NCBI RefSeq assembly: GCF_000003605.2 | Contig: NW_003109085.1 | Span: 36,844-64,522, forward strand | Source of the DNA: Saccoglossus kowalevskii | Taxonomy: Eukaryota; Hemichordata; Enteropneusta; Harrimaniidae | Reading direction: 5' to 3' | DNA length: 27,679 nt | Shown here: piece after piece, positions 1,615 through 26,590 of the stretch | Layout of the letters: each line of letters opens with the position of its first letter | How positions within the stretch are numbered: position 1 is the stretch's first letter | Translations under genes and position numbers: made by a program | Notes under the pieces: model-generated | Databases searched by the model: none | Told to the model about the DNA's origin: nothing | Seen by the model: only the letters and a program-made list of their open reading frames with translations

Positions 1615-1689
1615 ATGTCTTCGTCAGCTAGTGATATCAATGAAAAACATATTGCCGACGATTTCGTAATATACGTTAATGGTAAAAAG
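1615..1689 (+). CDS. XDH/AOX-like: exon 1: N-terminus
   Basis: Codes for 25 residues ending [11 protein letters not shown], the first beta strand of the ferredoxin-like domain. Donor AAG|GTAAGA, phase 0. Start context GCC-ATG-T. Followed by an 849-bp intron. Confidence 0.88.
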
Positions 1690-4600
1690 GTAAGATATCT
1701 TTCAGCTCTTTTTTCAGATAAAAATAGTAGGTAGTGCCCGGATGTAGCTTATATCTCACCGACATATGGCGGGGGGGGGGGGTCGTCCATGAAAACGGGT
1801 AAAAGGAAACCTTTTCTCTGGTTTTGTGACGGGACAGGAGCTTCATTCATTCAGAGTATAACACAATTTTAAATTCTATTTACAATACTATAATATTCGA
1901 CAGTGTATCATTTATAATTTTTTTTTTCACTTCTAACACACATTTTGATTCATTAATTTCAACATTTCCACAACGTGATAGATATGCTGGTAGCGATACA
2001 CATGCTTAGTCGACGTTATCAGTATTTTGTAAAAAAAAAAAACAGATACATATATTTCATATACTAGTATTTATTATTATTTTGAAATTAGTTTTCTTTG
2101 CATAAGTCTTGTGTTATTTTAACTATCCCCTTATATTTTCGCGATTGCAAAACTGAAAATAAATAAAACAAAATAAAATGATTTTGGAATTAATAATTGA
2201 ATATATTTTTTGAAGAAAGAAAATCACAAAATAATCTAGAATATTTTTAGTATTTGTTAGTTAAGCGCTTGAAATCGTATTACGAAATGTTAGTATTTCG
2301 CAATATCGAATTACACAATTCAATAATGGCTATTTTCAATGTTGATTTGGCCATTTCGAAATTGGAATATATACGGAAAACGTGTAGGGTAGCGGGTCGG
2401 ACTCCCACATACAATTTGCAATGATCTCAAAATAGGTTATTTGTTCTGTTGAAATCAATTCATTGCCCGAATCTCAAGAACCACATAGTTGTTCATATAT
2501 CAATATCAGCCCATTCATGTTTTGTTTTTTAATTTTAGTTTACAGATAGTCACGTGGAACCGGAAACAACATTACTGAACTATATCAGAAAGAAACGTAT
2601 TCTTTTTAAAGATCTATTTGTGAAATAGACCTATGTTTCAAATGCAATCCTATCATTGATAGATTGGTCACGGGTATGTTGTATGTGCGTTTCAGGCATC
2701 TTGTACAATTGTCTGTGCAATTATCGATTACATTCTTACCTACATTGAACACCATGTGTTTCCTAAAGGAAGAGTGTGCAGTAAACAAGTTTGTGTGATC
2801 ATTAGTACTTAATTAGAGATGCATTTTTGGTGCAATACAACTATAATGGGGACGCGTGTTATTCTGAACACATCTGAGAAATGTAATTCGTCTATCTATA
2901 GTAGTGTCAGTGGGAAACTTCTCGTCTGTCTATATCTCGTCCGCTTGAGGTACCGGACCGGGAAAGTCACTTAAACTTTACAGTCAAATAGACGCACTCA
3001 ACGAAATAAATTTCAATAGCTAGTATTTAGCCACATCGAGAACGCCTCAAGGCAAACTTCCTCGCCGGCGACTCTGCCCAGGCCTGACCAAGACTCTCTC
3101 GCCTCATGGAGCTTTCTCTGGGACCAAGGACTTAGACCATTTATTACGTATCAAAACTTAACCAATTACAAAGAAGTTTAAAGACTCTAAAGGCGTGGCC
3201 TTCACACATTCAACTTGCACATAGCCAATCAAACTAAGTACTGAACACGCCATATCTTTTGATTAATCGTTCACTATATTAATAACTGCAAATACAAACC
3301 GTCAGAAATAGCGGTCCGGATGGCAACGGTTATATCGTAATTAGTTTCAAATCACTGAGTCAAGTTCCGTCCAGGACCTCGCATAAGCCTAAATGATGAC
3401 AGATCTAACACAACTATTCACTAGTAATCAGCTGCATAAGTCGGTCAACAGATACGCGAAAACTAATTCATGACAGTAGTAATACAAGTTTAAATACCCC
3501 TACCTTATTGAATGATTTTATTGTGATCACCTCTACAATGCCATCATTGTCGCATTGTACTATTGGTATTATATGTATGAATAACATGTGGTGTCGTAGT
3601 AATATGAGCGGAAGCTAGAAAATAGACAATGATGTGATGTAACATGTATTGATGCCATGTGACAAGTTCAGTATTAGACAGTCATGTATTACCTTGACTC
3701 CTTATTCAGTAAGATTGACAGGGAGTAAATTGTCTTGTGGTGAAGGAGGATGTGGAGCTTGTACTGTAATGCTGTCAAAATATGACCACGTGGACAAGAA
3801 GATATCGTATCCTTTTTATGCAACAGGATTGATTCTAAAATATCACGTGCTTCACCACGTTTACAGGTGCAATGCTTATCTATGCCTTTATACATGCATG
3901 CACGTGAAAGCTTGCTGACAAGAAAATATTAGCGCGTGTACATTATTATAGCATGTCCCAGCATCGTTTTGTTATGCCAACTGATATGAACACTAAAATT
4001 TGAATGTTAATAGTATACATGTAGCGCATCGTAATACATATCAATAGTCACAGAATAGATACAATTACCCAGCACACTACGTGTAGTATTAGTGTGTAGT
4101 AGACAATTAGAAATAAAATCAATAATACATTATCCAAACAATATATCTGAACTATTTGTGCAGTCACTATGCTATTAATGCATGTTATACCCCTGTATGC
4201 TCTGTACATGGAATGGCTATCACAACAGTGGAAGGAATTGGATCATCAACAAAGTTACACCCAGTACAGGTACGTATTTTATCTAAAATTTGGATTGTTG
4301 TTATACAGTACAATGACACTTACTATAGTATATTGAACATATTCACACATCAGTTTGCATTTCGCTATCAATAAAACAGGAACGACTTGTCAAGGCCTTT
4401 GGTTTGCAGTGTGGGTTTTGTTCGCCAGGCATGGTAATGTCAATGTACACTTTATTACGTAATAATCCAGAGCCAACCGAGCTGCAGATAGAAGACTGCC
4501 TTGGAGGCAACCTATGTCGATGCACTGGATATCGACCTATTTTGGAAGGGTTTAAGACTTTTGCTAAGGTAATTCATTCTTGAATCTTTTACACAGCATT

Positions 4601-7600
4601 ATGGTTCACAAATAAGTATTACTTAATGAAGCAGATGGAAATGATCAAAGGGATATTGTTATTCATCTACACAATTTTGAAATTCTGTCTAAACCTAACA
4701 TATAATAATCTATTATAAATATGTTTTGCAGAATGGTTGTTGTGGAAACCCATCTATCTGCAATGACAGTCAAGATGACAAGAATGTAAGTAATATGTAG
4801 TATCACGGACATATTGTATGAGATACACATGCCATGTAAAACACGGACCATGTTTTTTATTTTTTGAAAAACGTGTTATAATTTTTCATCATTAGATTAT
4901 TATACTTCTTCATCTTCGCTTCGAACCCATGCTCGTTTATTATATTGTAGTTATCATCTTTAACTAACTGTGTTTTAAGAGTATTCATTTAAATTATATA
5001 ATGTTGATAGCTACGCAAGAGGTTGTCTGTTTGTTTGTTTGTCAATGAGCAGAATAACTTTTTAGAATGATTATTAGCCAAGTCTGTAGGCTATGAAAAA
5101 AGTTCTGAATGTGGTTGTATGGAGACTGTATTTTTATAAACCATAGATATATTGCAGATGTGAAGATGGTTTGCACTTTCGAAATTTTCGCAGATTCTAA
5201 CACGGAACTACTATGGAAAAAATAGTACAAATGCAATTATCAAATGTTATTGACGAGACAAAAATATTCTTTCAGGTTTTGAACCATTTATTTGCACCCA
5301 GTGACTGCACACCTTACGACCCGTCCCAAGAATTGATATTTCCACCCGAGTTGCAGGTAATATTCATTATATTGCGTAAAGGGAAAAAAAGGTCGGGAAA
5401 TGCTCGCATAATGAGTCAGACGTAAATAAAAACACATTATGAAGAGGGACAAAGTATAATTTTAAATGTGTCACAATATTGCGGTTTCGGAAGATTATGT
5501 GCATCTCACCACATTTGTTAAATGAAGGATCACTGGGCGAGCTTATTGTATCGCACATTTTCCACTAGTTTAACCCATGAATGTTTGTAGAAAGAATATT
5601 AGTATCGTATTCATAAAATTAATTGCATCACAATACAGTTATTTTCTCCAGGATCGTTCATTTATTTTCACACTTGTTTGTTTTTTATGTAGACAACTGA
5701 TGAATTCCACACTAAGAAGGTGCTGTTTGTTGGAGAATCAGTGGATTGGATTCGACCAACCTCCTTGGAAGAACTTCTTAGATTGAAGACTGAATTTCCT
5801 GCGGCTAAATTGGTGGTTGGCAATGCTGAAGTTGGTTAGTTCATCCGCTAGAAATAAATTGTGTGTGGATTAAAATGTATTGATCTTTAATATGCAGCTT
5901 AGAATTATAGATTGTATCTTTATGCTGCATGTAAAATATGTTGCAAAGTGATTTTCGTCGTGTTATTTGGTATTGAGATGATTACCTGAGCCCGAGTTAT
6001 ATACGTTTAATGATTTTGAGCTTTTGTCATAGCTCAATGTGGAATTGTACACATTAAATGTGTATTGCAGATACTCTTTCACAAACACCATATGTAACAG
6101 GTCTGTCAATGTATTGTCCATATTATATTATTTGAAGGATTTGAACCAAGACAAAATAATGTGAAAACTACTTTGATATCAGCAACACACGTACCAGAGT
6201 TAAACCAGATTGATATCACAGACTCTGGCATCACATTTGGTTCTTCTGTCACCATGAGTCGTATGTACGATGTTCTCAAAAAAACATCAGATGAATTGCC
6301 AAGTAAGTGTTTGGTGTATATTTAATTATTCAATTTGATAAAGTTTTATTTTAAATAATTCTTAACAAAATTATTGTATGAGTTTGAAATCTAGATTGTG
6401 CATGGGAAGATTGTCTTCCTGGGGTAATTAGATAAAACATATTTAAAAATGCAAATGCGTTCCAAGCATGTTTTGTATATTCATTACAAATGGAAGTTGT
6501 GAATTTGATTTGTGATTTATGTTGTGTTATTCATTAACAGAAATCAGAACAGCGATCTTTACATCTTTGATGAATATGCTGGAACTTATCGGTGACCAAC
6601 AACTGAGAAATGTAGCAGTAAGTTCATAGTTTAAAATACATCACTCACATAAATGGGCACCATTTTCATTTAATGACATTTCAATAATTAATTAGATTTA
6701 TCTATTTTCAGGGTATTGGTAGCCATATAATGAGTGCAAGTCCTTTATCTGATATCAATCCAATGTTGATGGCTGCTGAGGCCACTCTTATTATTGTTTC
6801 TCACAAAGGTATATGACGTCATAGTTACAACATAGAAATAATTATTAATGTGATTGAATTCAAAAATTACGTTCATCCATGTTTGTAATATCAACTGTGT
6901 GAATGTACGCTGTTTATTAAAATACATATATTTTGTTTTGTTGAAGATGGCACGAGAACCATACCCCTGGATTCAAGGTTTTTTACTGCATTTAGGAATA
7001 CTTGTCTGAGAGCAGACGATGTTTTAGTAAGCGTGACGATTCCGTGTTCGCAAAAGGTAATAATACTTGAAGCCCTAAATAATAACACTTATCAATGCTA
7101 TCGTATGAGAGTCTCACCAGGTGAGCGTTAAAAACATTTATTTCAACCTTCAATAATACATGATAATTTAGGGAGCAAAGAACGACACACTGTCCATTAT
7201 TGTGTGATACCAAGACCAGGGCGGGATGTGCGAAAAAGTGAGTGAATCAAGCCTATTATTTAGACAAACATTCTAATCCGAGCTCCGGTGTTATATATCT
7301 AATAAGAACCCTACAACAACAAAACAGAAACAAATATTATCGACCTACAATTTAAAAATATTATTATGTTCATATCATTAAACCTTTATTTAGATCAATA
7401 GCAACATCAATAGCAAGTACAGATATGATACGGGTGACCACCCACAATTAACCATCACGTATTTATAATTACTTCATTGAAAGGGTGAATATTTTAGAGG
7501 GTACAAAGTGAAAAATCAAGTTCATCGTCGAGACAAAGACGTTGCCATGATTAGTGCTGGAATGAAAGTTTTATTCGAAGACAAAAGTGATGTTATCAAG

Positions 7601-10600
7601 GGCATTAACCTCTCTTTCGGTGGAACTGGGCCAACTGTCATTATGGCTACCGACATTACGGAGCGAATTCAAGGAAGGTAACACTGATGGTTTCAAATTG
7701 GGTACAGGCAAACGTGATTGTGTGTAATGACTTTGTGATTCCCTTAGGCTTATCAATTTATATTTACAACTGATACGTCCACAACAACAACACTGTACTT
7801 AAATTACACATTATTCAATTTTGTTCTGCCATATATTTCTATCCCCTTTGAAAATGTATTTTGTGTTACAACATTATCTAATCTAAGTGTTAGGAATTAT
7901 TATAATTAAAAACTGAAGAAATTTTGAAGAAAGGATTACCATACAAATTTATATTTACATTCAGGAAATGGGATGATCATCTTCTCAGAGATGTTCAACA
8001 CATGTTGTTAGAAAGACTGAAACTTGCAACAGAAGGTGGTTTTCTGGAATATCGAAAGAATCTGTTGCAGAGTTTCTTCTTCCAATTTTATCTGCATGTG
8101 CAGAATGGTCTTAGTCAAGAACTAGTAAGTATATTAATTAAGTATTTGAAACGTTTCGGCTCTATGGTGAGCAGTCTGTCAATAAAATACATTGTTTATT
8201 TACACAACACAATTTAATTGATTGAACTATTTGAGGTTATACTGCAATAGTATTACAACTAACACAAATGTGTGTTCCATACTATTTGGTTAAACATACT
8301 GAGCGACGGTACACATTCCAATAACTATACATTGTAGTGTGATATTTTGATAGTTTTAATAGTATTATTGGTGATGTGAGATTGCTGTATTTAACAAAAC
8401 TGAAAAAAAAATTCACTGTAAAATAAAAAATCACAAACACATTCTTTACTAATACGTTAAGAACTATTCCGTCAAAATAAATTATTAATATTATCATTTT
8501 GTTTTGTTTTAAGGCTAACACTGTTGCAGCCTTGTCGTCATCATATAAATCAGCTTTAACCCCACTTGAGATGCTACCTTACAGCAGTACACAGATGTTT
8601 CAGGTACGCATATGTACAGTCAAAGTAAGAATGAGATGCACCCTTGCATCCCACATTCTAACTAATGATTAATTCTAAATAATTTACTCAAGAATTATTT
8701 GTTATTCATAAAGCTAGGAATTTCGACTTATCTAGATATACTGTTTCTATTGGAATTGCAAATACTAATCTCATATATGTATATGGCTTTATCATTCAAT
8801 ACATATCAATATATTGTCGATAATTATGAAGAGACACACGGATGTTAATATGTATATTCAATAGGGAATTGTTAATGCCAATGGATAATTATTGCCTCCA
8901 CTTTTATAGGATGTACCAAGTGGACAATCAGTGGATGATCCAGTCGGTCGACCAATTATGAATGAATCAAGTTTACAGTTAGCCACTGGGGAAGCTATCT
9001 TTTTAGATGATATTACGCTCGAAGAAGGTAGCTTACGTATTTTATAATATTACCCCTCTACCATGACAACCAGTCAGATTGGCACATGTGTTCATTAATT
9101 AATTCAGTTTTTTATTGGTTGGTTTAGATTATATCATAACAAGTCTTCTTGAAGTGAATAAATTGTTTACCTCCTAATAAATTGACCACTTCATTTCTTC
9201 TCAACCTGCAGGTGAATTACATTTTGCACTTGTAACAAGCAAGCGTGCACATGCTAAAATAATGTAAGTAACATGTATTGACTATCTAAAGTTGCACATA
9301 CACAAATAGATTAAATGTCTTTCAATTTGTTCCAAAATATTGCTTAATGATATAAAACAATTCTGGCAAAATTGTAATCAGTTCAATGAGATAATACATC
9401 AACAAATCTGTTAAAGCATGTTTTACCGAAACGAATGAATTTTAATAATTTCAGACATAATATGCTGCCTATTCCTAAATAAGTAAATGTTTTTACGTTC
9501 CTCTGTGTTTGTTGCAGATCCATCGACGCATCAGACGCCACGTCACTCGTAGGTGTACGCTGTTTTGTTGGAGCATCTGATGTTCCTGGACGAAGTGCAT
9601 GGAGTGTAGCGAACCCAGATTTACTGGATGAAGTTATTTTTGCTTCAGATGAAGTAAGCTAGCGCTTATTTATTGTATATTACCTCTCGATATAGGAAAG
9701 CAGATACATTATTTACTGGTTTTTATTAATCTGTACCTACAATCTTTGTACATAAAACACGTCAGAATTGGATCGGTTTGTATTGTTTTGCAGGTTTTGT
9801 GTGTCGGTCAAGTTATTGGTGGAATTGTTGCAGACACACCACAGTTGGCACGTAAAGCAGCAACATTAGTTAAAGTCGAATATGAAGAACTGGAACACAT
9901 TCTTACTGTTGACGTGAGTAGTCATTTATTTATGGAATTGTCACAACAAAGTGTCGCTAATGGAAATCTTGATGTTTCTAATTTCTAAAAATACGTCTAT
10001 ATATTAGCAATTAAATGCGCATTTTGTACTTCAAGGAGTCTGTAGTGAACAATTACAACAATTTACAATCACATTATTTATTGTTGGGCCAATGACTCGA
10101 ATGACAGTTAATCTACATAATGAGGTGCATATATAAAACAAAACACATTGTTAGGTAGCAATAAATCACTACCGTTTTTCGTTACCAAAACCANNNNNNN
10201 NNNNNNNNNNNNNNNNNNNNNNNNNNNNNNNNNNNNNNNNNNNNNNNNNNNNNNNNNNNNNNNNNNNNNNNNNNNNNNNNNNNNNNNNNNNNNNNNNNNN
10301 NNNNNNNNNNNNNNNNNNNNNNNNNNNNNNNNNNNNNNNNNNNNNNNNNNNNNNNNNNNNNTTTGATCAGTTCAAATTCAGTATGCGGGGATTTTAAAAG
10401 TTTGTCACTGTTTATGGCTATATCAATTTCAAACAACTAACTAATACAAGTTACTGTCACTAGCTTATCTCTGCATGTAGAACGCACTTGTGCTTACGGC
10501 GGTGGTCATGTTTATTATGATGGTATCACACCCATCATCAATGTATTTGCAAAGAAATACAATTTGAAAACAAGCATAACTTCGACTCGTCGTGTCGAAA

Positions 10601-13600
10601 ATTGGATTAGCGTTAGTTTTCACTTAGTGTATGGTATATTTACTGTAAAATAAAACCCACAAACACGTTCAATCTATAATACATTATATTTCAAGGAAGC
10701 CATTGACAAAGAATCATTTATGCACCCAATACGATGTTTAGAAGATGGAGACGTGAACGGGGAATTCAAAAAATCAGATTTTGTGGTAGAGGGCGAAGTT
10801 CGTGTGGGTGGTCAGTATCATTACTATATGGAGACCCAGTGTTGTATCGCACAGCCAAAAGAGCGTGGTGAAATGATCGTGACTGTGTCATCGCAGTCAC
10901 TAACAAGTTTACAGGTTAGTCAGTAATATATCCACGGTCTGCATTGGGTTTGTCAATTCAACCCCCAAACATGCGGTATTAGATTTAGGCGAGTCATAGA
11001 CTTCATGGTATAGTAGCGATCATGAGTTATAGAGCAATACACTTTACAGTATTTTCAACAATTAAATGGTATGGCTACAAATGCTCACGCGGTCATACTG
11101 CATTTGCAATTAGTTTTAGTGCATATTCATTCATACAGAATATTCATATGTATGATTCGGTTTCATCATATTTTCTGTTTTAAATATCCCCTCTACGCTG
11201 ATTTAGGTAAATGTAGCAGCAGCTCTTGGTATTCCAGTAAATAAAGTGACATGTAAGATACGGCGTGTTGGAGGAGGATTTGGTGGTAAAGACACTAGCA
11301 CAGTCAATTTCGCAATGGCATGTGCTGTCGCCGCAAAAAAGTACGTGCATTCAATTCAATTTGATATGTATTTGCGCTGACTACCACATGTAAATGTGTA
11401 CAGAAATGGTCGAAGATCTAAATAAACACGCCATTCTGTTTTGATATCTCGGGACAAAAGCTTATTCAGAAGTTAAGTTTGTATCAGCATGGAATATCGA
11501 AAATAAACAAGTCACTCAATTTTGCATATATGTGCTATTTTAATGTTCATAACAAATACGTATGTTTGGAGTGTACCTTGAACTATCACACACACGGTAT
11601 CTCAATTGAATCATGGTTTGGCTATTGAGGTCTGACTATATTACATTTGACATATAAATACAACAAATTCGTTCAAATCGCTGATAATAATATACATAGA
11701 TGATAATTATAGGGTTGGAAAAACAGTTCGTCTTGTCATCGGGCGTGATTTGGACATGCAAACTGTTGGACTGAGGCATCCATTAGTCGGCAGGTATAAA
11801 GTCGGCTTCAACAAAGACGGCAAGCTGCGTGCACTCGAAAGCGAAATTTTCTTCAATGCAGGCTACTCCTATGACTTATCAATGTTGGTGAGTTTCTACT
11901 TGTTAGTCTACTAATTACGAGACATAATCCATTAGTGTAAATTTAAGTGTTGAAATCAAGGAGACATTCCCAAACCAGTTTGTTTAACAGTCTAACACAT
12001 TAGATAAAGGTATTAGTTGCACTATTGATTTTTGAAACACGTACTAAAAACTGTATAAAGATAACCAGTTCGGAATCATTTGGTGTTTCACAGCGGGTGC
12101 GATAATTTATTACACAAAACTATTACATAACAAAAGCTAGAAACTTAGTGTGAAACTGTTTTTCCTTTCTTTGCTAGATACTAGAAGTCGGGATGCATCA
12201 ATTACATAATGCCTATATGATTCCTGCATACAAACTAACTGGAAAGCTCTGTAGAACAAATCTTCAATCTAACACATCAATGAGAGGAATTGGAACGTTA
12301 CAATCTATGGCATTTATTGAAACAGTTATGGATACCGTGGCAACAAAGTGTGGCGTATCTCCAGTGAAGGCGAGATTACATTTTTCTGTATTTGAGAATG
12401 TTTCAAATCTATAAGTTTTATTTATTTATTTATTTATTTAATAAAAATATAGTTTAAACTATCAACAATTTTGCTAAAATTAAATTGGTTAGTCTAAAAC
12501 AGTATACTTATGATATTTCACAGATACATTTTTTGAACTGCTATTTTTGCCAATTTGAAATTTGTATTCATACGCAGTGTTGACTTAAATACAACAAAAG
12601 CACTGCATGCATATACCATGTGACCATATGTGTCTATTTTAGGTCAGAGAGATAAACTTGTACAAGGTTGGCGATACAGACCACTTTTATCAAGACATGC
12701 CAGATGTGATGAATCTAAAACGATGTTGGGATGAGTGTCTTGTGAAAAGTGATTTTCACAAACGTAGACAAGAAACGGATCAGTTCAACAGGTTATATTT
12801 TCATGTTGCTTGCTCAGTTGTGCAGTGTTTCCTCAATACAGTCAATAGTATCAAAATTTATGTTATGAAATAGTTCAATATGCTATATTGAGTGTATAAA
12901 CGTATTGCAAGTGGTATTTGATAGATAATGTTGTACCTCTTGAGCGGGGGTAGTTTATTTGAAGTGTATTCGCTTTCTTTGCTCGGAAAGTATCTACCGC
13001 CAAATATGCTAATTGTCTCCGCAAAGAGGTAGCACGTTAACGCATCGATCTCTGCTACGCGTCGCACGATGCGATCATCGCACTGCCTTTGTACGTATAT
13101 CTATGCGATCTAGCACGTGCCTCAATATTTACTATTGACTGCTAGCAATTGTTTTTAATAATATAGTAAATACGGATAGTATCGCCATGTGTCAAACTCG
13201 GTCATATATGAACTATTTAAATACATCACCCGTAGTATGAATTTCTGACATATTGGTATACTGTATTTCTCTTATAGAGAAAATCGTTGGAAAAAAAGAG
13301 GACTCGCTATCGTTCCTATCAAACGAATGACTGGCATTCCGATTCCTTTTATGAATCAGGTTCGTAATACTTTCTCCATGGAGACACATTAGACACTAAA
13401 TTGTGTGCTAGTTACATCAGCGGTTCGGAAACTGGTAAGCAGTAGATCCGGTTTAGTGAAGAAATGAATCCTGCGAATCCACGGTAATGTTTTGAGAACT
13501 GGAAACGTAGAATTCTCAAATTCGTGTTCAAAACATCAACGCAAACTAGTAAAAGCATGAAACTATTGATATATAGCAAGAACATATTAAAAAACATTTA

Positions 13601-16600
13601 TTACAAAACCAAATTGTCCAGTCACTAAACGAGCTATTTTTTGGCTGTGATTTGCTGGTTAGTGCAAGTGTAATATTGATAAACACATTACAAGATTTTA
13701 TGTTAATGATATTGCATGGTTTATATGATAAATATATACAGTTACATACTATGCAACTAAAATTATTGTCGAGACTAGTTAATTACAAATATGTAAGTAC
13801 ATTGACTCTTCTTTAATTAAACACCGTGGCTCATAGGGCGCTGCATTGGTGCATATATATCTAGATGGTTCAGTGTTACTTACCCATGGTGGTATAGAGA
13901 TAGGTCAAGGGTTACATACCAAGACGATACAGATTGCAAGTCGTGTTCTGCGTATATCTTCTGAACGTATACATATCAGTGAGACCAGTACCGATAAGGT
14001 ACCGAATGCAGTCCTAACTGCTGGTTCATCTGCAACTGATCTCTTTGGCAGTGCTGTGAAGGTAAACATTTTGATTGTTAATTACAGTGATTTAACATAC
14101 TAATACACTGTACTTCGCTATTCGTGGATACGTCCACGGTTAATGGGAACATTGTTTTTCTTTGGTAGGTTGCTTGTGAGACATTGATGGATCGCCTGGA
14201 ACCATTCATGAAAGAAAATCCTAAAGGCTCGTGGGAACAATGGGTAAGTGTGAAGAATATTTAGTATCTGTATAATGCTGAACATGTGTGCAGATTCCTT
14301 TAAATACATCACACAATGATATCTCGAATTAAACATTTTCTATACGTCGTGTCTTGGGGTGAAAATTAGAGCATCGATATTGTTTTGATATGAAGTGTGT
14401 ATATTTACTATCTTATAAAAGACTACACAGTCAAACACAGCTTTGAATTCTCAACGACATTGCTTTCACATATCAACGTCATTCATTATGCAAGAAGCGG
14501 CGAATACAAGAATAAACTAATTGTCTTGTTCTTAGGTTGGTGCAGCCTATTTCAACAGAGTGAGCTTATCAACTACCGGATTCTACAAGTAAGTGAGCAT
14601 CAAGTGAATAGGCTACAACATTAACATACATGTCTATTTGTGTTGATAAACATAGATTTTCCAATCCATCACAATACAATACGCTTTCCCAGTGAAAAGC
14701 ACTAACTTTTGTGCATTTAATACCGACTTTGACTTGTTGAATATTTGTCGATGTGTTCAAGCCAAATTACTTATGTAGGCCTTGGTAACATATCTTTGTT
14801 GTGCTCGTAAATCTAGAGAACATTAAAAGTCGACATCTTTGTTCGCATGACGGGGGGCCAAGTATGGCGGACGACCACTACACTTAAAGGTGGTAGAAAA
14901 ATTGTATGGAGTGCAATAAGAGAATCTCAGTTACAATAAATGTACTGATAAAAAAATGGTATCATACCAGTTTGTCAGTGCTTTATTGGGATTGGACGAC
15001 GCGCGTTCTATTTCACTCAAGTTGATTAGAGCATAATGGGCTGCTATTCACGGGTTATGATTTTGATGTTCTTCCTACAATATGGATAGCAAATATTAAG
15101 ACTATTAAAATTAATATCTTATGAAAATTGGCTTCAATTCCACCAGGGAACTAAAATGTAGTAGGTTCATTATGATGACATCAAATCAAGAAGAAATCAA
15201 CTTTGAAAACAAACATAATTTAAATTACGGCATGTGGGAATTTACATTGCTACTCGGTGTTTGTGAGTTATGTGCAGTTATATTTTAATCCAGACGCATC
15301 CAGGGCGCGCCTTACAGTTCAATTTTGTTTCTTCAATTTTGAGCGTGTTTGTGCTGTTTCCATCGCTATAAAACTAGGTGAAAATAATGCTTATATAAGG
15401 TAATAGCAATAACCCTCGCTTGCCAAGACGGGTGTACAATTTGATATTTCACAATTTACTCCATATATGCTCGAACCGTCAATTCTAATCGCTTGAATAA
15501 TTGATATATGCTATAATTGTAGTTATATAAACCGTGACAACACTGATATCGTAGAGATGATACATTAAACGCAAATGGTCGCCAAGATCTCGCTGAGAGC
15601 GAGAAAGCCACGAGATTTGTTTTCCCACTCAAATACATTGTTGACTTCTCTCCTGTAATCGCGTACACTGTTTCAGTGTTCTATGTAATCGTGATGATTT
15701 GGGACAGTCTGGACGCACTGGCGGGAGACTGGAGAATAGGCACTTCCTTGCCACCAAACCTTCATTTATTCATTTAAAAAGGGTAAAACATAGTGTAAGT
15801 TGCAACTTGTCGCGCATGGCCCTCAAAAATACTGATAATTCATTCACAATTCGACACTACAACAGCAATGACTGGCACACTATAATGCAATGACAATTTT
15901 TAAAATTGTAGTTACAATGCACGAAAAAAATCCCCAACTATTTATGCATAAATATGGTTACGCTATACGATTGCCTGATTTCCTGTTCCAAAGATTTGGT
16001 GGCACACTCTACATCAGATAGAAACTCGTGATGAGTATTACAAAATGTTGAATTTTACAAAATATGAAGTTTGATATCGGGAAATATCCGACATCAAGTA
16101 CACCTGAATATTTAGGGTATATCCATAGTTACTCAGGGTTAAAACTTTGTATGAAACAAACATATTGATATAAAGATAAGAAATGCACACATTCAAGTCT
16201 GACCATTCGTCAATAAGGTATTACTATAGGTGTTGTTATGAATTGCTATTGCTGAACAATGACAAACATATATAGTGATATCACTCTACAATTTATTTAG
16301 ATATCCAGGAGAAATAGGTTTCAATTGGGAAGATCACCGCGCAAGTCGGCTGGCGTACAACTTTATGTATGGGGCTGCTTGCTGTGACGTTGAAATCGAT
16401 TGCTTAACTGGTGATCATCAAATGAGACGAGTTGATATTGTTATGGATGTCGGGAAAAGTTTAAATCCAGCACTGGATATTGGACAGGTAAAGTGTGCAT
16501 TGTATTATAATACTTCTCGTTGTGTTGTGGTTTATCCAGTTATCATTAGGAGGATTCATGAATAAGAAATATATGATTTATCATGATGGACAAATGTGAT

Positions 16601-19481
16601 GTGCTGTTATTGAAGACATGAATTGAATAAAACGTCTGATATAACTTTTTGTACGTTGCAGTACCGTAATTTGCAGAATTGTATCATATAATATTCAAAA
16701 TTTATTATTTTCATAACAATTACAAATTATACAATTAGCATATTTTATATTAGCATTTTTGTATGGAGATACGTTTCTTTTCAATTATGCTGCCTGACAA
16801 GATTTATCAACAATCTTACAGCCAACACAGTATTTGCTTATAGGATGACACAACGTCACAGCAGTTGTAAACAATGTTGTTACTGATTACACTATAAACG
16901 TCACGTGGTTGAGGAATGCCTGGAGATTATATATGCATAGACACATACACTCAAAAATGTTGTTACTGATTACGCTATAAACGTCACGTGGTTGAGGAAT
17001 GCCTGGGGATTATATATGCATAGACACATACACTCTAACAATGTTGTTACTGATTACACTATAAACGTCACGTGGTTGAGGAATACCTGGAGATTATATA
17101 TGCATAGACACATACACTCTAACATAGAGCAAGGTTTAGTATAAATTGATGGATTTCTATATATAATGGAACTATTTGAGAGACAAGTGTACTTCGGCGT
17201 AAGCGAACGTCACTGTCGCAAATCACCCACGCAGTTGCTTAGAATTTAGAGGTTTATTCATTGATATGATAATTCAGTGAAAATACGTGACACTACAGTT
17301 CAGTTTATTGACTGGGTTCATTTATATATATATTGCCTTGTTGTACCAACCAACAACCGAGTATTCCCAAATAGCAGCACGGCGTTTACGTAAACAATGG
17401 TCTGTTCATTTCACAACGTCTCATATGCGGACGGTTTGGCTACTAAACATTAACGAATGAAAATGCTTAAACATTTCCAATAACACAATATCTTGTATAC
17501 ATGTGTTGTCATTATTCATGATGGAATTCGGGCTAGTTTTATACACGACCCAACATATCTCAGCGCACGGATTCTTTTCTAAAATAGGCTGGTGACTAAA
17601 AACGTACTTTTAATACATTTTTGTGGATTTAGTACATTTTCCAGAAGTACTTAAGTGCATGGGGGTTTAAAATATAATTATATATTTGTCATTGAAACAC
17701 CGATTAACCCAAGACCAAACATGATGACAATACGCGTGAAAGACGAGTGACAACATGCATTACCCGCCATAGTCATATTCAAGAAGTTCACGTATAGATA
17801 ACCAGATATTGTTCTCTTGTAAATAGTGACATTGATATATTAAAAACCATACAAATCAGTATTTCTCCATTAATTCAATTTTTCGTTATCGTGAAGACAG
17901 TTTTGTATAATGTAACGTTTGTTTTTCAGTCATAATCTCTCACATACCTTTTACCTAGATTGAAGGTGCTTTCATGCAAGGATATGGTTTATTTGTTGTG
18001 GAAGAATTGCGATATTCACAAAAAGGCGAACTACTGACCAGGGGACCGGGAATGTATAAAATACCATGTGTCAGTGATATACCAAGACAATTCAATGTGC
18101 ATTTGTTGAAAGGAGCTACGAATCCAAACGGTATCTATTCTGCCAAGGTGAGTGATGTATATCGATGGAGTCTTGAAACTGATTTCGTGGAATATAGAAT
18201 TTTTCGTGGATTATAGAGTGTTTCGTAGATTAGAGAATATTTCGTGCATTATAGCATATTTCGTGGATTTAAGCATAATTGAAGAAGTGACAAATGAAAG
18301 CCGTAAATTATTAACGACTGCGACTTCAAAGTAGTTCATTGCACAAGATGCATCAGTCAGTATATATAGGTGGAATAATTTCCCTGCATTATTATTACAT
18401 ACATTGAACATTACTAAATCGAAACATGTTTTCAGTCGAATTGGCGATTAAAGGGAGGTGGTCGTACAGAGCGCGTTCAAATATAGTGTAAAAATCACAT
18501 TTATTTATACGTATCACATGGGACGCGTGAGGCAAAGACCCTCACTCTCTAAACAATCTATTACAAATATGATATTTTACTCCTATGTATGAAACGTCGT
18601 TTATTAAGCATGATTCATTTATCGTATGATTAATACTGTTAGGCAATTGGAGAACCACCATGCTTACTTGGAGTATCTGCACTGGTTGCCATCAGAGATG
18701 CTATATCTTCAGCTAGATCAGATGTTGGTCTCCATGGCAACTTCAAGCTGGACTGCCCATCAACACCTGAAAGAATCCGCCATGCCTGCAGTGATGATTT
18801 CCCCAAACCTGCCAAACAGGTACAATCTAGTTCAGAACAGAAACATTTATGTCAAAGTGTTGTTTTATAAGTTTATCAAACATATGTAAACTATAATATA
18901 AACAATCATCATTGGATCTAAGGTGTAACAACATATAAATGCTCACATTCGCATAGCGTCACACAAGTTATCGAAAGTAGAATACCATGTAACGTAAATC
19001 AATGTTCTGTCATGCAATTTATATACTCAATAACAACTACTGTATTAGAATTATGTGTAAGCATGTTATATTGCCTTCCAAGCAATATTGTTTTGTGAGA
19101 GATATTTGCATGTATGAAGTTTGTAATTGGTTGATTGGACCCTATATTGCAATGTGTCAACATAAATCGTTAATCCTTACGCAAATTGATAATTATATTT
19201 ATCGAAACGTTTGTGATATTCAATCTCATTTAATAATTTTTGTTTGCAACAATGATAATTTGACATTTATTTGTTATATTGTTAGACTTTATTATAAAAT
19301 GTTTTTGTGAGACTGTATCTTGTAATATGAAATTATGCCGGACATTTTATTTTGTCCCAGTGTTTTTTTTACATGTAATGTTTGCGTAAAACAGTAACGT
19401 GTGTATGATTATACTAATCAATTTACTACAAACATATTCTTATAATTACAGGTAATTGATGACTACTTCGTCAGGCCGTAG
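1615..19481 (+). CDS. XDH/AOX-like: XDH/AOX-family molybdo-flavoenzyme, complete gene, 32 coding exons, 1335 aa
   Basis: Enzymes of this family hydroxylate purines, N-heterocycles or aldehydes at a molybdenum centre and pass electrons through two [2Fe-2S] clusters to FAD, then to NAD+ or O2; they act in the cytosol as homodimers. The spliced exons keep frame throughout (4008 nt with stop). Visible signatures: plant-type ferredoxin cysteines C54, C59, C62, C84; second cluster C123, C126, C158, C160; FAD-domain segments (VVGN at about 261, [10 protein letters not shown] at about 356); Moco-domain GGGFGGK (802-808), QGLHTK, DCLTGDH and GEPP (E1271). Substrate-pocket positions depart from XDH: D809 for bovine Glu802, V887 for Arg880, I921 for Phe914, I1017 for Phe1009, P1018 for Thr1010. 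Motifs such as [17 protein letters not shown] and [11 protein letters not shown] are closer to aldehyde oxidases. The start is the first ATG of the conserved N-terminus, with G at -3. Family membership is certain; XDH versus AOX activity is not. Confidence 0.95.
1690..2538 (+). other. intron 1, 849 bp
   Basis: Contains a run of 12 G at 1771-1782 and poly(A)/(T) runs. No other feature seen. Confidence 0.8.
2539..2596 (+). CDS. XDH/AOX-like: exon 2: ferredoxin-like domain
   Basis: Reads [19 protein letters not shown], the family's 'dPETTLLxYLR' stretch. Acceptor TTTTAG; donor AAAC|GTATTC is weak but gives phase 1 and joins cleanly to exon 3 ([12 protein letters not shown]). Confidence 0.88.
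2597..3709 (+). other. intron 2, 1113 bp
   Basis: Mostly AT-rich. A GC-richer patch at about 2940-3130 stands out and may be an old insertion, but I recognise no element in it. Confidence 0.75.
3710..3806 (+). CDS. XDH/AOX-like: exon 3: first [2Fe-2S] cluster loop
   Basis: Reads [20 protein letters not shown] then [12 protein letters not shown]. It carries three cluster cysteines (C54, C59, C62). Acceptor ATTCAG|TAAG, donor ATC|GTATCC (weak), phase 2. The next intron is 357 bp with nothing noted. Confidence 0.92.
4164..4269 (+). CDS. XDH/AOX-like: exon 4: fourth cluster cysteine, linker to second Fe-S domain
   Basis: Reads [20 protein letters not shown] then [16 protein letters not shown]84 is the fourth ligand of the first cluster; TVEGIG is a family hallmark. 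Ends in phase 0 at CAG|GTACGT. Confidence 0.94.
4380..4568 (+). CDS. XDH/AOX-like: exon 5: second [2Fe-2S] domain
   Basis: Contains [19 protein letters not shown] and [20 protein letters not shown]. These are the all-helical second Fe-S domain with C123, C126, C158 and C160. 63 codons, phase 0 at both ends. Confidence 0.95.
4732..4785 (+). CDS. XDH/AOX-like: exon 6: interdomain linker
   Basis: 18 codons, [18 protein letters not shown]. The Fe-S to FAD linker is poorly conserved in the family, so this exon rests on TTTTGCAG/GTAAGT splice sites and frame. Followed by a 490-bp intron in which I see nothing else. Confidence 0.75.
5276..5356 (+). CDS. XDH/AOX-like: exon 7: linker, [12 protein letters not shown]
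   Basis: Ends [14 protein letters not shown], matching the family's 'DPTQEPIFPPEL' segment before the FAD domain. Phase 0 at both ends. A 336-bp intron follows with nothing noted. Confidence 0.9.
5693..5834 (+). CDS. XDH/AOX-like: exon 8: start of FAD domain
   Basis: Reads through [14 protein letters not shown] to [12 protein letters not shown], the first FAD-contacting segment (family 'LVVGNTEIG'). Donor GTTG|GTTAGT, phase 1. Next intron 303 bp. Confidence 0.93.
6138..6302 (+). CDS. XDH/AOX-like: exon 9: FAD domain
   Basis: Starts FEPRQNN and contains [20 protein letters not shown], equivalent to family 'IPELNxVxxxxxGIxFGAA'. Phase 1 at both ends. Confidence 0.9.
6541..6617 (+). CDS. XDH/AOX-like: exon 10: FAD domain helix
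   Basis: Reads [20 protein letters not shown] then LRNVA. The Phe that stacks near the flavin in bovine XDH (Phe337) aligns with I339 here; alignment in this helix is by eye. Ends phase 0. Confidence 0.88.
6712..6808 (+). CDS. XDH/AOX-like: exon 11: FAD pyrophosphate loop
   Basis: Reads [20 protein letters not shown], matching XDH 'VGGNIITASPISDLNP'. The GGN of XDH is GSH here (S352, H353); AOX proteins have GGH. Donor AAAG|GTATAT, phase 1. Confidence 0.93.
6947..7056 (+). CDS. XDH/AOX-like: exon 12: FAD domain
   Basis: Reads [20 protein letters not shown] then [17 protein letters not shown]. This matches XDH 'FFPGYRKTLLxPEEILLSIEIPYS', with F396 where XDH has the NAD-stacking Tyr. Ends phase 0. 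A 427-bp intron follows with nothing noted. Confidence 0.9.
7484..7677 (+). CDS. XDH/AOX-like: exon 13: FAD domain, NAD-site loop
   Basis: Begins [20 protein letters not shown] then [11 protein letters not shown]. The RRxxD-V/I-A loop resembles dehydrogenase-type XDH (RREDDIA) and not vertebrate AOX. The AAG|GGTGAA acceptor was chosen because only it keeps phase 0 and the conserved GEYF. Ends phase 2. Confidence 0.9.
7965..8124 (+). CDS. XDH/AOX-like: exon 14: end of FAD domain
   Basis: Reads [20 protein letters not shown] and ends [20 protein letters not shown], matching the family's 'TLxxSFFFKFYLxV'. Ends phase 0. The 389-bp intron holds an AT-rich stretch (8414-8455) resembling one in intron 19. 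Confidence 0.93.
8514..8603 (+). CDS. XDH/AOX-like: exon 15: linker to Mo domain
   Basis: 30 codons ending [13 protein letters not shown]. This is a low-conservation linker before the molybdenum domain; splice sites and phase are clean. Next intron 306 bp, nothing noted. Confidence 0.85.
8910..9027 (+). CDS. XDH/AOX-like: exon 16: start of Moco domain
   Basis: Contains [20 protein letters not shown] then AIFLDDI, equivalent to family '[26 protein letters not shown]'. Ends phase 1. Confidence 0.93.
9212..9263 (+). CDS. XDH/AOX-like: exon 17: Moco domain
   Basis: Reads [17 protein letters not shown], matching 'ELSLRLVTSTRAHAKI'. Enters in phase 1 and leaves in phase 2. Confidence 0.93.
9518..9653 (+). 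CDS. XDH/AOX-like: exon 18: Moco domain
   Basis: Reads [20 protein letters not shown] then DVPGRSAW and DEVIFASDE. Family features are 'SIDxSxAxxxPGVxxFxxAxDVPG'. Ends phase 0. Confidence 0.93.
9794..9913 (+). CDS. XDH/AOX-like: exon 19: Moco domain
   Basis: Reads [20 protein letters not shown] then [20 protein letters not shown]. It is followed by the 782-bp intron that contains the assembly gap. The protein continues into exon 20 ([13 protein letters not shown]) without loss, so no coding exon is missing in the gap. Confidence 0.94.
10194..10361. other. assembly gap (168 N)
   Basis: Unknown bases inside intron 19. The true size may differ from 168. Confidence 1.
10441..10653 (+). other. 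coding-like open frame in intron 19, unassigned
   Basis: An open frame free of stops runs from 10441 to a TAA at 10651. Its core, from about 10480, reads [20 protein letters not shown] then [11 protein letters not shown] and STRRVENW. It is richer in G+C than its surroundings and has an acceptor-like TCTCTGCATGTAG before it and GC|GTTAGT after it. It is not part of the XDH/AOX fold, whose chain runs uninterrupted from exon 19 to exon 20. The GGHVYYD segment faintly recalls flavin-dependent amine oxidases, but I do not assign it. Confidence 0.35.
10696..10914 (+). CDS. XDH/AOX-like: exon 20: Moco domain with active-site Gln
   Basis: Contains [18 protein letters not shown] and [14 protein letters not shown]774 in SSQ aligns with bovine Gln767, which contacts the molybdenum centre. 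The METQ form is like aldehyde oxidases. 73 codons, phase 0 at both ends. Confidence 0.95.
11207..11340 (+). CDS. XDH/AOX-like: exon 21: GGGFGGK active-site loop
   Basis: Contains [21 protein letters not shown]809 after GGK replaces the catalytic/substrate Glu (bovine Glu802). Ends phase 2. A 372-bp intron follows with nothing noted. Confidence 0.95.
11713..11887 (+). CDS. XDH/AOX-like: exon 22: Moco domain
   Basis: Reads [20 protein letters not shown] then [12 protein letters not shown], matching '[30 protein letters not shown]'. Ends phase 0. Confidence 0.94.
12178..12369 (+). CDS. XDH/AOX-like: exon 23: Moco domain, substrate-pocket wall
   Basis: Begins [16 protein letters not shown] and contains [16 protein letters not shown]887 sits at bovine Arg880; R919 (Arg912) is kept; I921 replaces Phe914. 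Ends CGVSPVK at AAG|GCGAGA, a non-canonical GC donor chosen because homology needs CG-x-SP-x-K-VR. The alternative GT donor six bases upstream would drop V and K. Confidence 0.88.
12416..12440 (+). repeat. (TTTA)n microsatellite in intron 23
   Basis: Short run of TTTA/ATTT units 47 bp after the exon 23 donor. Confidence 0.85.
12643..12791 (+). CDS. XDH/AOX-like: exon 24: Moco domain
   Basis: Reads [20 protein letters not shown] and contains [18 protein letters not shown], matching 'VRRKNLYKEGDxTHFNQ...LxRCWEECLxxSxYxxR'. Ends phase 2. The 486-bp intron has a GC-richer patch near 13010-13110 and nothing I can name. Confidence 0.93.
13278..13359 (+). CDS. XDH/AOX-like: exon 25: Moco domain
   Basis: Reads [20 protein letters not shown] then PIPFMNQ. 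The XDH substrate pair Phe1009-Thr1010 is Ile-Pro (1017-1018) here. Ends phase 0. The 477-bp intron has nothing noted. Confidence 0.93.
13837..14061 (+). CDS. XDH/AOX-like: exon 26: Moco-binding core
   Basis: Contains [20 protein letters not shown] then [25 protein letters not shown] and AGSSATDL. It carries the pyranopterin-contacting GQGLHTK and the 'AxSxxAD' segment. The best-conserved exon, 75 codons. Confidence 0.96.
14169..14243 (+). CDS. XDH/AOX-like: exon 27: Moco domain
   Basis: Reads [20 protein letters not shown] then SWEQW, matching the family's 'ACQTILKRLEPxxxKNPxGSWxxW'. Phase 0 at both ends. Confidence 0.94.
14536..14588 (+). CDS. XDH/AOX-like: exon 28: Moco domain
   Basis: Reads [17 protein letters not shown], matching 'VTAAYMDTVSLSATGFYR'. 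Ends phase 2 at AA|GTAAGT. Confidence 0.94.
14589..16300 (+). other. intron 28, 1712 bp
   Basis: Longest intron of the gene. AT-rich with several short chance ORFs on both strands; I see no coding exon, RNA gene or named repeat. Confidence 0.8.
16301..16487 (+). CDS. XDH/AOX-like: exon 29: Moco domain
   Basis: Contains [20 protein letters not shown] then [22 protein letters not shown], a family hallmark ending in the conserved DIGQ. The short [11 protein letters not shown] entry is closer to AOX spacing. Ends phase 0. Confidence 0.96.
16488..17958 (+). other. intron 29, 1471 bp, with a minisatellite
   Basis: Contains the three-unit 84-bp tandem repeat listed separately. The rest is AT-rich with no supported feature. 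Confidence 0.8.
16874..17124 (+). repeat. 3 x 83-84-bp intronic tandem repeat
   Basis: Three near-identical units start at 16874, 16957 and 17041, differing at only a few bases. Each unit has a palindromic CACGTG E-box (16902, 16985, 17069) and a TATATATGCATA string. The high identity suggests recent expansion. Confidence 0.95.
17959..18147 (+). CDS. XDH/AOX-like: exon 30: Moco domain
   Basis: Reads [20 protein letters not shown] and [20 protein letters not shown], ending YSAK. This matches 'VEGAFVQGLGLFTLEELxYSPxGxLxTRGPxxYKIPxxxDIP'. Phase 0 at both ends. Confidence 0.95.
18183..18277 (+). repeat. 5 x 19-bp tandem repeat in intron 30
   Basis: Five consecutive 19-bp units begin TTTCGTxxATT at 18183, 18202, 18221, 18240 and 18259. 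The array lies 36 bp after the exon 30 donor. Confidence 0.9.
18643..18819 (+). CDS. XDH/AOX-like: exon 31: active-site Glu, C-terminal Moco domain
   Basis: Begins [20 protein letters not shown] then ISSAR and contains [15 protein letters not shown]1271 in GEPP is the catalytic base (bovine Glu1261). Ends phase 0 at CAG|GTACAA. Read-through would add 16 residues to a TAA at 18868. Confidence 0.94.
19452..19481 (+). CDS. XDH/AOX-like: exon 32: last nine residues and stop
   Basis: Short terminal exon VIDDYFVRP-stop after ATTACAG. It is favoured over intron retention because it supplies a family-like final 'VRP' and a normal length of 1335 aa, but evidence for so short an exon is modest. Confidence 0.65.
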   Translation, partial: VIDDYFVRP

Positions 19482-20048: not shown

Positions 20049-21199
20049 ACATGTATAGCGATATATCCATAGCTAGACGAACTGGCACAGGATCATTTTA
20101 TAAATGTACTTTCACCCAATCATTTATTGTTTTCTTGTACCAAGTTATTTACCGTATTTACACTAAAAACAGTACATCTTGTTTTATTATATGCACCCAT
20201 TGATATCCAGCTTGATTGCAATTGCATTGATTGCAAAGTCATTCCACTACCACTAAATTAGTATTAAGGAGAGTCAAACATTCTCTCGTAGAAACAACTA
20301 GAATCTTGAAAAATAGCTCGTCTGGTTGGTGCATATATTTTGTTTACAGACTGGGGGTATTGGGATTCAGTGGACCGGTAATTAACAAGTCGGTTGGCTG
20401 TTCTACGCTTAAATGGAAAACTGTTATGTTATGTGCTAACTATCATACACAATTATTGAAATATAAGTTTAATAAAATTCCTAAAATGCATTTGATTAAC
20501 ATTGAGTTATCTTAAATTGACGGGATGTTAAGCTTCTGGTGTATTGATATTCTCTGAATCATTGTTCGATTCACCCATTTTCCTTACACGTACACGGGAC
20601 ATGTGGAAGCATGTTATCTCAAAACTATGCTAGATAAATTACATTATGTTTCTTGCCATTGTATTATACAACCTGATTATGATCAATATATTTGTGCTAC
20701 AATTGATTGTTCTAGAATGCAGAATGAATGTCTTTATATTAATGATGGATATGTTAGAACTCGCATGTGACCAGCAAACGAGGAATGTGCCTGCGAGTTT
20801 TTCGATTTTACAAATTTACGTGTCGTGTATGATAGTGTATATATAGGGTTCATATTGTACTGTGTTAACTAATTTGCAATAAAGAAATATGACTTACTTG
20901 GAATATATCACTAACTAATTACAGTTAGTTACATAATGAACATTCCGATTTAATACTTTTGTAAGATTATGAATCTTAAGCACAGAATGTATTGCAAATT
21001 GTTCCGAATAACCGGTCAATAAATTGCTGGTCGAGTGTTTGTGGGATTTGTTATAGACCAAGTTTTCAATAAATTGCTAGTCTTGAAAGCATTCCAACTA
21101 TCTTCATGGGATTGACAAAATATTCTGACAAATTCTCAATATAAATAGATATCTAAGACTGTCCTGAATGTCTATTTCTGGCATTGTAAATAAACAAGC

Positions 21200-22368: not shown

Positions 22369-22690
22369 AAGCCGAGAGTGGCCTTTCTAATTTCCGACTT
22401 AGTATTGTTGCAAACCACAGGAGCAAAATGTACCGTCACTTGCAGTGATGAAACTTCATAGTAGTTTCTATCATTTTTGCACAGAATTATTTTGCATACA
22501 GGTTATGGGGCGAGATCAGCGCCAAAATTATTTTTATATTATCTTTGCATTAGGATGGCATTATTCTACCATATTTATATTGTCTTTCCATTTTAATATA
22601 TTCTACCTTGGAAAAAGTGACCTGATAATATTCTACCCATGGACAAGTTGTGATTTACCTGGGAACAAGTCGCCGGATTATATTCTACTT
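22369..22690 (+). repeat. interspersed repeat, copy 1
   Basis: Matches 23889-24218 through many blocks, e.g. CATAGTAGTTTCTATCATTT, GAGATCAGCGCCAAAATTAT and ATATTATCTTTGCATTAGGA. It has an internal 83-bp duplication of TTCTACYTTGGAAAAAGTG near 22601 and 22684. Confidence 0.85.
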
Positions 22691-23955: not shown

Positions 23956-24218
23956 TATTATTGTTGCAAGCCGAAGGAGCAAAAAAGTACCGTCATCTGT
24001 AGTGATGAAACCTCATAGTAGTTTCTATCATTTGTGCACAGAATTGTTTTGCATACAGGATATGGTGAGATCAGCGCCAAAATTATTGTTATTGTTATAT
24101 TATCTTTGCATTAGGATGTCATTGTCTTTGCATTTGAATATATTCTACCTTGGAAAAGTGATCTGATAGTATTCTACCCATGGAGAAATCCCGAGCATGT
24201 CGCCTGTTTATATTCCAC
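23889..24218 (+). repeat. interspersed repeat, copy 2
   Basis: Direct-orientation relative of 22369-22690, about 1.5 kb downstream. It differs by substitutions and by the ACTTCC-rich tract joined to its 5' part. Confidence 0.85.
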
Positions 24219-26500: not shown

Positions 26501-26590
26501 ATGTCTACTGCTCTAAGTTGCCCATCATCTAGTGACGGTAATGAAACGCTTGTTGCTGACGAGTTGGTTATATTTGTCAACGGTATAAAG
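26501..26590 (+). CDS. XDH/AOX-like: second XDH/AOX-family gene, exon 1 (partial gene)
   Basis: Reads MSTALSCPSSSDGNETLVAD then ELVIFVNGIK, followed by AAG|GTGAGT in phase 0. It has the same design as exon 1 of the upstream gene (variable Ser-rich start, then [11 protein letters not shown]) and the same GCC-ATG-TCT start context. The homologous exon 2 was not found in the remaining 1.09 kb, so the gene continues past the window. This places two paralogues head to tail, 7 kb apart. Confidence 0.85.

Follow-up and report, generated by a model that had tools for sequence, protein, structure and literature searches.

A 27,679-nucleotide stretch of Saccoglossus kowalevskii DNA (the window; G000:C348:36844-64522, from a source genome of 572 Mb in 4830 contigs) carries a whole gene for a molybdo-flavoenzyme of the xanthine dehydrogenase/aldehyde oxidase (XDH/AOX) family in which residues of both the substrate pocket and the FAD side have been replaced. 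Judging from its sequence, the product is probably an AOX-type enzyme belonging to a duplicated family whose pockets are diversifying, with purine oxidation left to a separate XDH. The rebuilt pocket had been pointed out in a sequence-only reading of the window; that reading did not include the gene duplications, the variation of the pocket among copies or the replacements on the FAD side.

Exons 1-31 of the gene were placed by eye and then checked for splice sites; they span 1615..18819 and encode 1326 aa. Exon 32 was located by comparing the sequence downstream of the window gene with that of its paralog C2890a, which has a similar, matching last exon, and once it was added the previously proposed length of 1335 aa was reproduced. 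The spliced model has 32 exons and no internal stops. For exons 1-31, all 30 acceptors are AG, while the donors of those 30 introns are GT in 29 cases and GC in one (12370-12371, after exon 23; C2890a, C2890b and C348c have GT there). A GT also lies 3' of exon 31 and has a counterpart, with the exon equally long, in C2890a, C2890b and C348b. Mis-splicing was ruled out by the agreement of exon edges and lengths across the paralogs. Seven Pfam families scored above their cut-offs, and the two [2Fe-2S], FAD and Moco domains lie in a single chain. The features of the window are listed below with XDH equivalents in brackets.

1615..19481 (+): whole gene, XDH/AOX-family molybdo-flavoenzyme, 32 exons, 1335 aa (exon model, translation, Pfam)
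3710..4568 (+): exons 3-5, two [2Fe-2S] domains with cysteines 54, 59, 62 and 84 and cysteines 123, 126, 158 and 160 (Pfam, translation)
6541..6617 (+): exon 10, Glu-Leu-Ile in place of XDH R335-W336-F337 (alignment; C217 has RWF)
7484..7677 (+): exon 13, FAD A-loop, in which 3 residues are inserted; Lys435 is the D429 equivalent, codon 7535 by arithmetic (alignment)
10696..10914 (+): exon 20, Gln774 (bovine Q767; codon at 10894 by arithmetic from the exon model) and Ser778 (K771) (exon model, alignment)
11207..11340 (+): exon 21, Asp809 (bovine E802), codon start 11291 (exon model, alignments)
12178..12369 (+): exon 23, Val887 (R880; codon start 12187), Gln891 (H884), Arg919 (R912; 12283) and Ile921 (F914; 12289), followed by the GC donor at 12370
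13278..13359 (+): exon 25, Ile1017 (F1009; codon start 13336), Pro1018 (T1010; 13339) and Met1022 (L1014) (exon model, alignment)
13837..14061 (+): exon 26, Ala1086-Gly1087 (bovine A1078-A1079) (exon model, alignment)
18643..18819 (+): exon 31, catalytic base Glu1271 (E1261), codon start 18652 (exon model, alignment)
19452..19481 (+): exon 32, VIDDYFVRP and stop (comparison with C2890a)
26501..26590 (+): first exon of the next tandem paralog, MSTALSCPSSSDGNETLVADELVIFVNGIK (exon search)

From the family motif, we take the listed cysteines to be the Fe/S cluster ligands. Residue correspondence was established with phmmer against human XDH (C-terminal half, E 2.6e-250) and with a MAFFT multiple alignment that included human XDH, human AOX1, two bacterial XdhB sequences and the copies from the animal's own genome. 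The exon model and alignment bear out the five substitutions claimed before: the XDH residues E802, R880, F914, F1009 and T1010 are Asp809, Val887, Ile921, Ile1017 and Pro1018 in the window gene, which lacks the canonical set. Equally as claimed, the equivalents of Q767, R912 and E1261 (Gln774, Arg919 and Glu1271) are unaltered in the alignment and the full translation, and the Fe/S cysteines are all present; Gln774 and Glu1271 fall outside the range 11281-13359 assigned to the earlier observation. Because E802, R880, F914 and F1009 are kept in all four XDH rows (human, C217 and two bacterial) and T1010 in three of the four, the five changes are not attributable to chance. K771 to Ser, S876 to Leu, H884 to Gln, L1014 to Met and A1079 to Gly are further departures from XDH. 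At the ten first-shell pocket sites, as listed in a mouse AOX3 study (PMC3864932), the window gene differs from human XDH in nine, L873 alone being unchanged. PMC3624778 describes the roles of E802 and R880.

Gene copies were counted from PF02738 and PF20256 exon matches across the genome contigs, and the counts are lower bounds. At least seven copies were found (strongest PF20256 exon once on C217, once on C3989, twice on C2890 and three times on C348). The copy on C217 is an orthodox XDH, identical to the human enzyme at 64.2% of 636 aligned positions. It retains E802, R880, F914, F1009, T1010, A1078-A1079 and E1261, and eight of its nine readable first-shell sites are the same as in human XDH, the ninth, H884, being Ser; its exon 20, with Q767 and K771, was unreadable. 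Its FAD-side marks are retained as well, namely R335-W336-F337, Y393 and a REDDIA loop. Since this orthodox XDH resides in the same genome, the window gene is not simply this animal's XDH, and the idea that it represents how XDH looks in this animal was ruled out. Its presence, together with the replaced pocket and FAD-side residues, upholds the earlier view that the window gene is not a canonical XDH. The five other altered copies share the exon plan of the window gene where readable, and their pockets are altered where readable, each differently. At positions 802, 880, 914, 1009 and 1010, respectively, they have:

C2890a: D, A, A, L, P
C2890b: D, V, A, I, I
C348c: I, K, P, K, A
C3989: F, Q, F, P, L; Gln767 is replaced by Arg (C3989:44847-44629, minus strand), but Phe914 and Glu1261 are kept
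C348b (readable in exons 1 and 24-31): 1009 is E and 1010 is S

The exact five-change combination of the window gene, with Ile at both clamp positions, is absent from the other rows examined. A dS of 0.36 ruled out that the window gene and C2890a are haplotype copies. A second tandem XDH/AOX-like gene begins in the window with its first exon (26501-26590), and exons 24-31 at C348:85942-88671 probably belong to it, the middle being unreadable. An exon-10-like fragment (RMNVFILMMDMLELACDQQTRNV) at window positions 20721-20789 (56.5% identity, E 0.066) is perhaps a relic of another duplicate. Besides the seven or more copies there is a divergent XDH/AOX-like fragment at C287:110158-111768 (minus strand), in which only exons 22, 30 and 31 are plausible and exon 7 is a weak candidate; it was excluded from trees and counts.

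Whole proteins of the family show low dN/dS (NG86). The window gene and C2890a gave 0.215 over 978 codons (0.194 in the Moco domain), and comparisons of the window gene with C2890b, C348c, C348b (404 codons) and C3989 gave 0.169, 0.218, 0.262 and 0.164, respectively, dS being saturated in the last. Over 15 pairs the range was 0.096 to 0.392, with the maximum between C348c and C348b over 207 codons. The pocket sites behave differently. Among the window gene, C2890a, C2890b and C348c, they hold 2.8 residues per site, and the figure elsewhere in the 556 columns is 1.59 (permutation p 9e-5, repeat 5e-5). C348b and C3989 were left out of this main count; adding C3989 strengthens the excess (3.7 versus 1.93). 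Between the window gene and C2890a, 6 of 10 pocket sites differ, compared with 80 of 664 others (Fisher p 5e-4), and the codon N:S ratio is 7:0 at the ten pocket sites versus 96:121 at the rest (p 0.004). The N:S test also gave p 0.006 for the window gene and C348c, and 0.025 for C348c paired with either C2890a or C2890b; the first-shell excess was not significant in the remaining two pairs (window gene/C2890b, p 0.24; C2890a/C2890b, p 0.21). Thus four of six pairs pass 0.05, with p values that are uncorrected, pairs that are non-independent and dS values near 1 that are poorly estimated. When first- and second-shell sites were taken together, 23 in all, the p values were 0.035, 0.059, 0.12, 0.0002, 0.0004 and 0.0035. 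Several pocket-site differences were already known before testing, and the site list itself came from a paper. Across five XDH rows, by contrast, these sites evolve more slowly than the average site (p_lo 0.014, nine of the ten being readable); positions that are slow in XDH have turned fast in this family, against a background of purifying selection. This pattern suggests selection for new substrates as the pockets diversified.

Loss of normally invariant residues is also what a relaxed pocket would give, in a dying duplicate drifting towards loss of function. The Arg at the Moco-side Q767 position of C3989 and the decayed exon-10-like fragment downstream of the window gene fit such a history, which we nevertheless consider very improbable for the window gene: its 1335-aa frame is open, its splice sites are in place, its catalytic residues are kept, and the Moco-domain dN/dS quoted above does not resemble that of a pseudogene. 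The paralogs likewise have stop-free exons (31/31 in C2890b, 31/31 in C3989, 27/27 readable in C348c and 21/21 readable in C2890a), although the exon search accepted stop-free exons only and so shows their existence rather than providing an independent stop check. Enzyme activity, as proposed in the sequence-only reading, appears likely given the open frame, the Fe/S cysteines, the Q767, R912 and E1261 equivalents and dN/dS values of 0.16-0.26.

The FAD side points to a change of electron acceptor. PMC3509653 and PMC4832347 describe for XDH an Asp429 near the flavin, a cluster of R335-W336-R427-F549, and Tyr393 for NAD+. At R335, W336, Y393 and D429 the window gene has E, L, F and K, where C217 has R, W, Y and D, and its version of the four-residue cluster reads Glu, Leu, Arg and Leu (the last by alignment). 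Position 429 is Arg in C2890a, C2890b and C348c. The N-terminal half of rat XDH was taken from PDB 2e3t, which has Ala-Leu versus Trp-Phe in the human and bovine enzymes, and this row was not used for W336; we presume 2e3t to be an engineered mutant. The loss of these XDH marks near the FAD suggests an oxidase using O2, which would be the likely electron acceptor of the window-gene enzyme.

Compared with canonical animal XDH (human, 2ckj, and C217), the window gene is alike in domain order, Fe/S cysteines and catalytic Glu, with 52.1% identity to human XDH over 749 positions of the Moco half only, but differs in its purine-binding residues and at R335, W336, Y393 and D429. E802 and R880 are lost in vertebrate AOX as well (hAOX1, 4uhw), and mouse AOX likewise comprises several isoenzyme genes. 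PMC3864932 gives Ile at F1009 in mAOX1 and Pro (P1015) at T1010 in mAOX3, the same residues as in the window gene, and reports high conservation of F919, equivalent to F914, across vertebrate AOX and XOR. Here the window gene differs from vertebrate AOX, having Ile for this Phe, and also Gln for Lys at 884 and, at 802, Asp809 where the AOX sequences examined have Val or Ala. Aldehyde oxidase 1 of PDB 7px0, presumably the Drosophila enzyme, has also lost F914, with Pro in the stretch CRAPG, has no Arg at the R880 position and keeps R912 (residues 848-933 only). It is far more divergent, scoring 350 bits against the C-terminal half of the window gene versus 751 for human AOX1. Given its Pro at 914, the aromatic there, which the earlier reading stated for vertebrate AOX, is typical of that group but not of all AOX. 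For single changes the earlier reading had overstated the case: those at F914, F1009 and T1010 have precedents in PDB 7px0, mAOX1 and mAOX3, the precedent at 914 being for loss of Phe and not for Ile. No such genes were recognised in the literature outside vertebrates, insects and plants, in a search that reached only a minority of the subscription papers.

The six non-XDH copies, the window gene and the five others, form one clade with 100/100 support in all four trees, and the window gene is sister to C2890a (100/99). The trees took in human AOX1, mammalian XDH and C217, with insect AOX left out, and were run on the Moco half, on the full length, with a fly XDH added, and with bacteria removed; none of these variants settled how the family branches relative to those three. 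The family might descend from a single ancient AOX lineage to which vertebrate AOX also belongs, and have inherited its pocket change, a reading that competes with independent origin and not with an AOX-like function. A clade with human AOX1 was not rejected (AU p 0.379 and 0.422; 0.312 and 0.338 in trees including the fly XDH sequence), and in the alignment both have F1009 replaced by Ile/Leu and A1079 by Gly. On the other hand, the free trees keep the two apart with weak support either way; grouping with C217 is equally unrejected (AU p 0.436) and appears, unsupported (36/29), in the best tree of another run; the window gene has lost F914 and has Gln at 884, where human AOX1 has Lys; and identity is slightly higher to rat XDH (49.3% over 1301 positions) than to human AOX1 (45.9% over 1297). 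We regard shared ancestry as a serious possibility, if not the favored one. The sequence-only reading had suggested an independently evolved aldehyde oxidase or an enzyme with a new substrate; with a family tree now built and a clade with human AOX1 unrejected (AU p 0.31-0.42), independent evolution is not established, and because the AU tests rejected neither grouping, independent origin is neither demonstrated nor excluded.

With respect to substrate, the alternative to an AOX-type enzyme is a hydroxylase specialised for purines or N-heterocycles and altered in its regiochemistry, which has some appeal: the acid at the E802 position is Asp in the window gene, C2890a and C2890b, and fungal HxnS, a nicotinate hydroxylase, is an XDH paralogue with a new heterocycle specificity (PMC5746545). 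According to the same paper, HxnS retains E802, R880 and both Phe clamps, F914 and F1009, and has an Ala inserted between F1009 and T1010; the window gene retains none of the four and lacks the HxnS feature set. Such an enzyme is therefore judged unlikely. Measured against published criteria the window protein is AOX-like. A conversion of human XDH to AOX type by active-site mutations is reported (Yamaguchi 2007, as cited in PMC3624778). Against an AOX-type enzyme speak the acid kept at 802, the Gln at 884, the slightly greater overall identity to XDH, and a score of 1358.9 bits against TIGR02969 (mammalian AOX), below the cut-off of 1912.3.

In the favored AOX-type scheme, Glu1271 would activate the Mo-OH, which would attack an aldehyde or an electron-poor ring carbon, so that the substrate would be a non-purine, and electrons would pass through the two [2Fe-2S] clusters to FAD and then likely to O2 rather than NAD+. 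At least six copies would each have a copy-specific substrate pocket, their whole proteins being under purifying selection, and the orthodox XDH, a separate gene, would handle purine oxidation. A bolder and less likely version would see an invertebrate multigene set of Mo-oxidases derived on its own from XDH, with positive selection on the pocket of each copy and a FAD side turned to O2. Both Phe residues of the aromatic purine clamp would have been given up, for Ile, Ala, Pro, Leu or Lys, and the set would form a detoxifying or chemosensory array for aliphatic or bulky substrates beyond those of known AOX. That duplicates of XDH can change function and become AOX-like is known, and an orthodox XDH and altered copies with one exon plan in one genome allow pocket and FAD-loop substitutions to be compared side by side. 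If the lineage is independent, it would offer one more case in which to ask whether pocket and flavin changes of the same kind arise repeatedly.

Some additional features of the sequence were noted. The intron 5' of exon 30 contains three tandem 84-bp copies with 95% matches (window 16870-17124). A pair of 89-bp direct repeats (window 22425-22513 and 23982-24070; 89% identical, 1557 bp apart) is possibly an interspersed element. On the mitochondrial contig, C4830, the best codon readings are TGA=Trp, ATA=Ile, AAA=Lys and AGA=Ser, a set that speaks against an echinoderm, and nd1 and cox2 are on the other strand from cox1.
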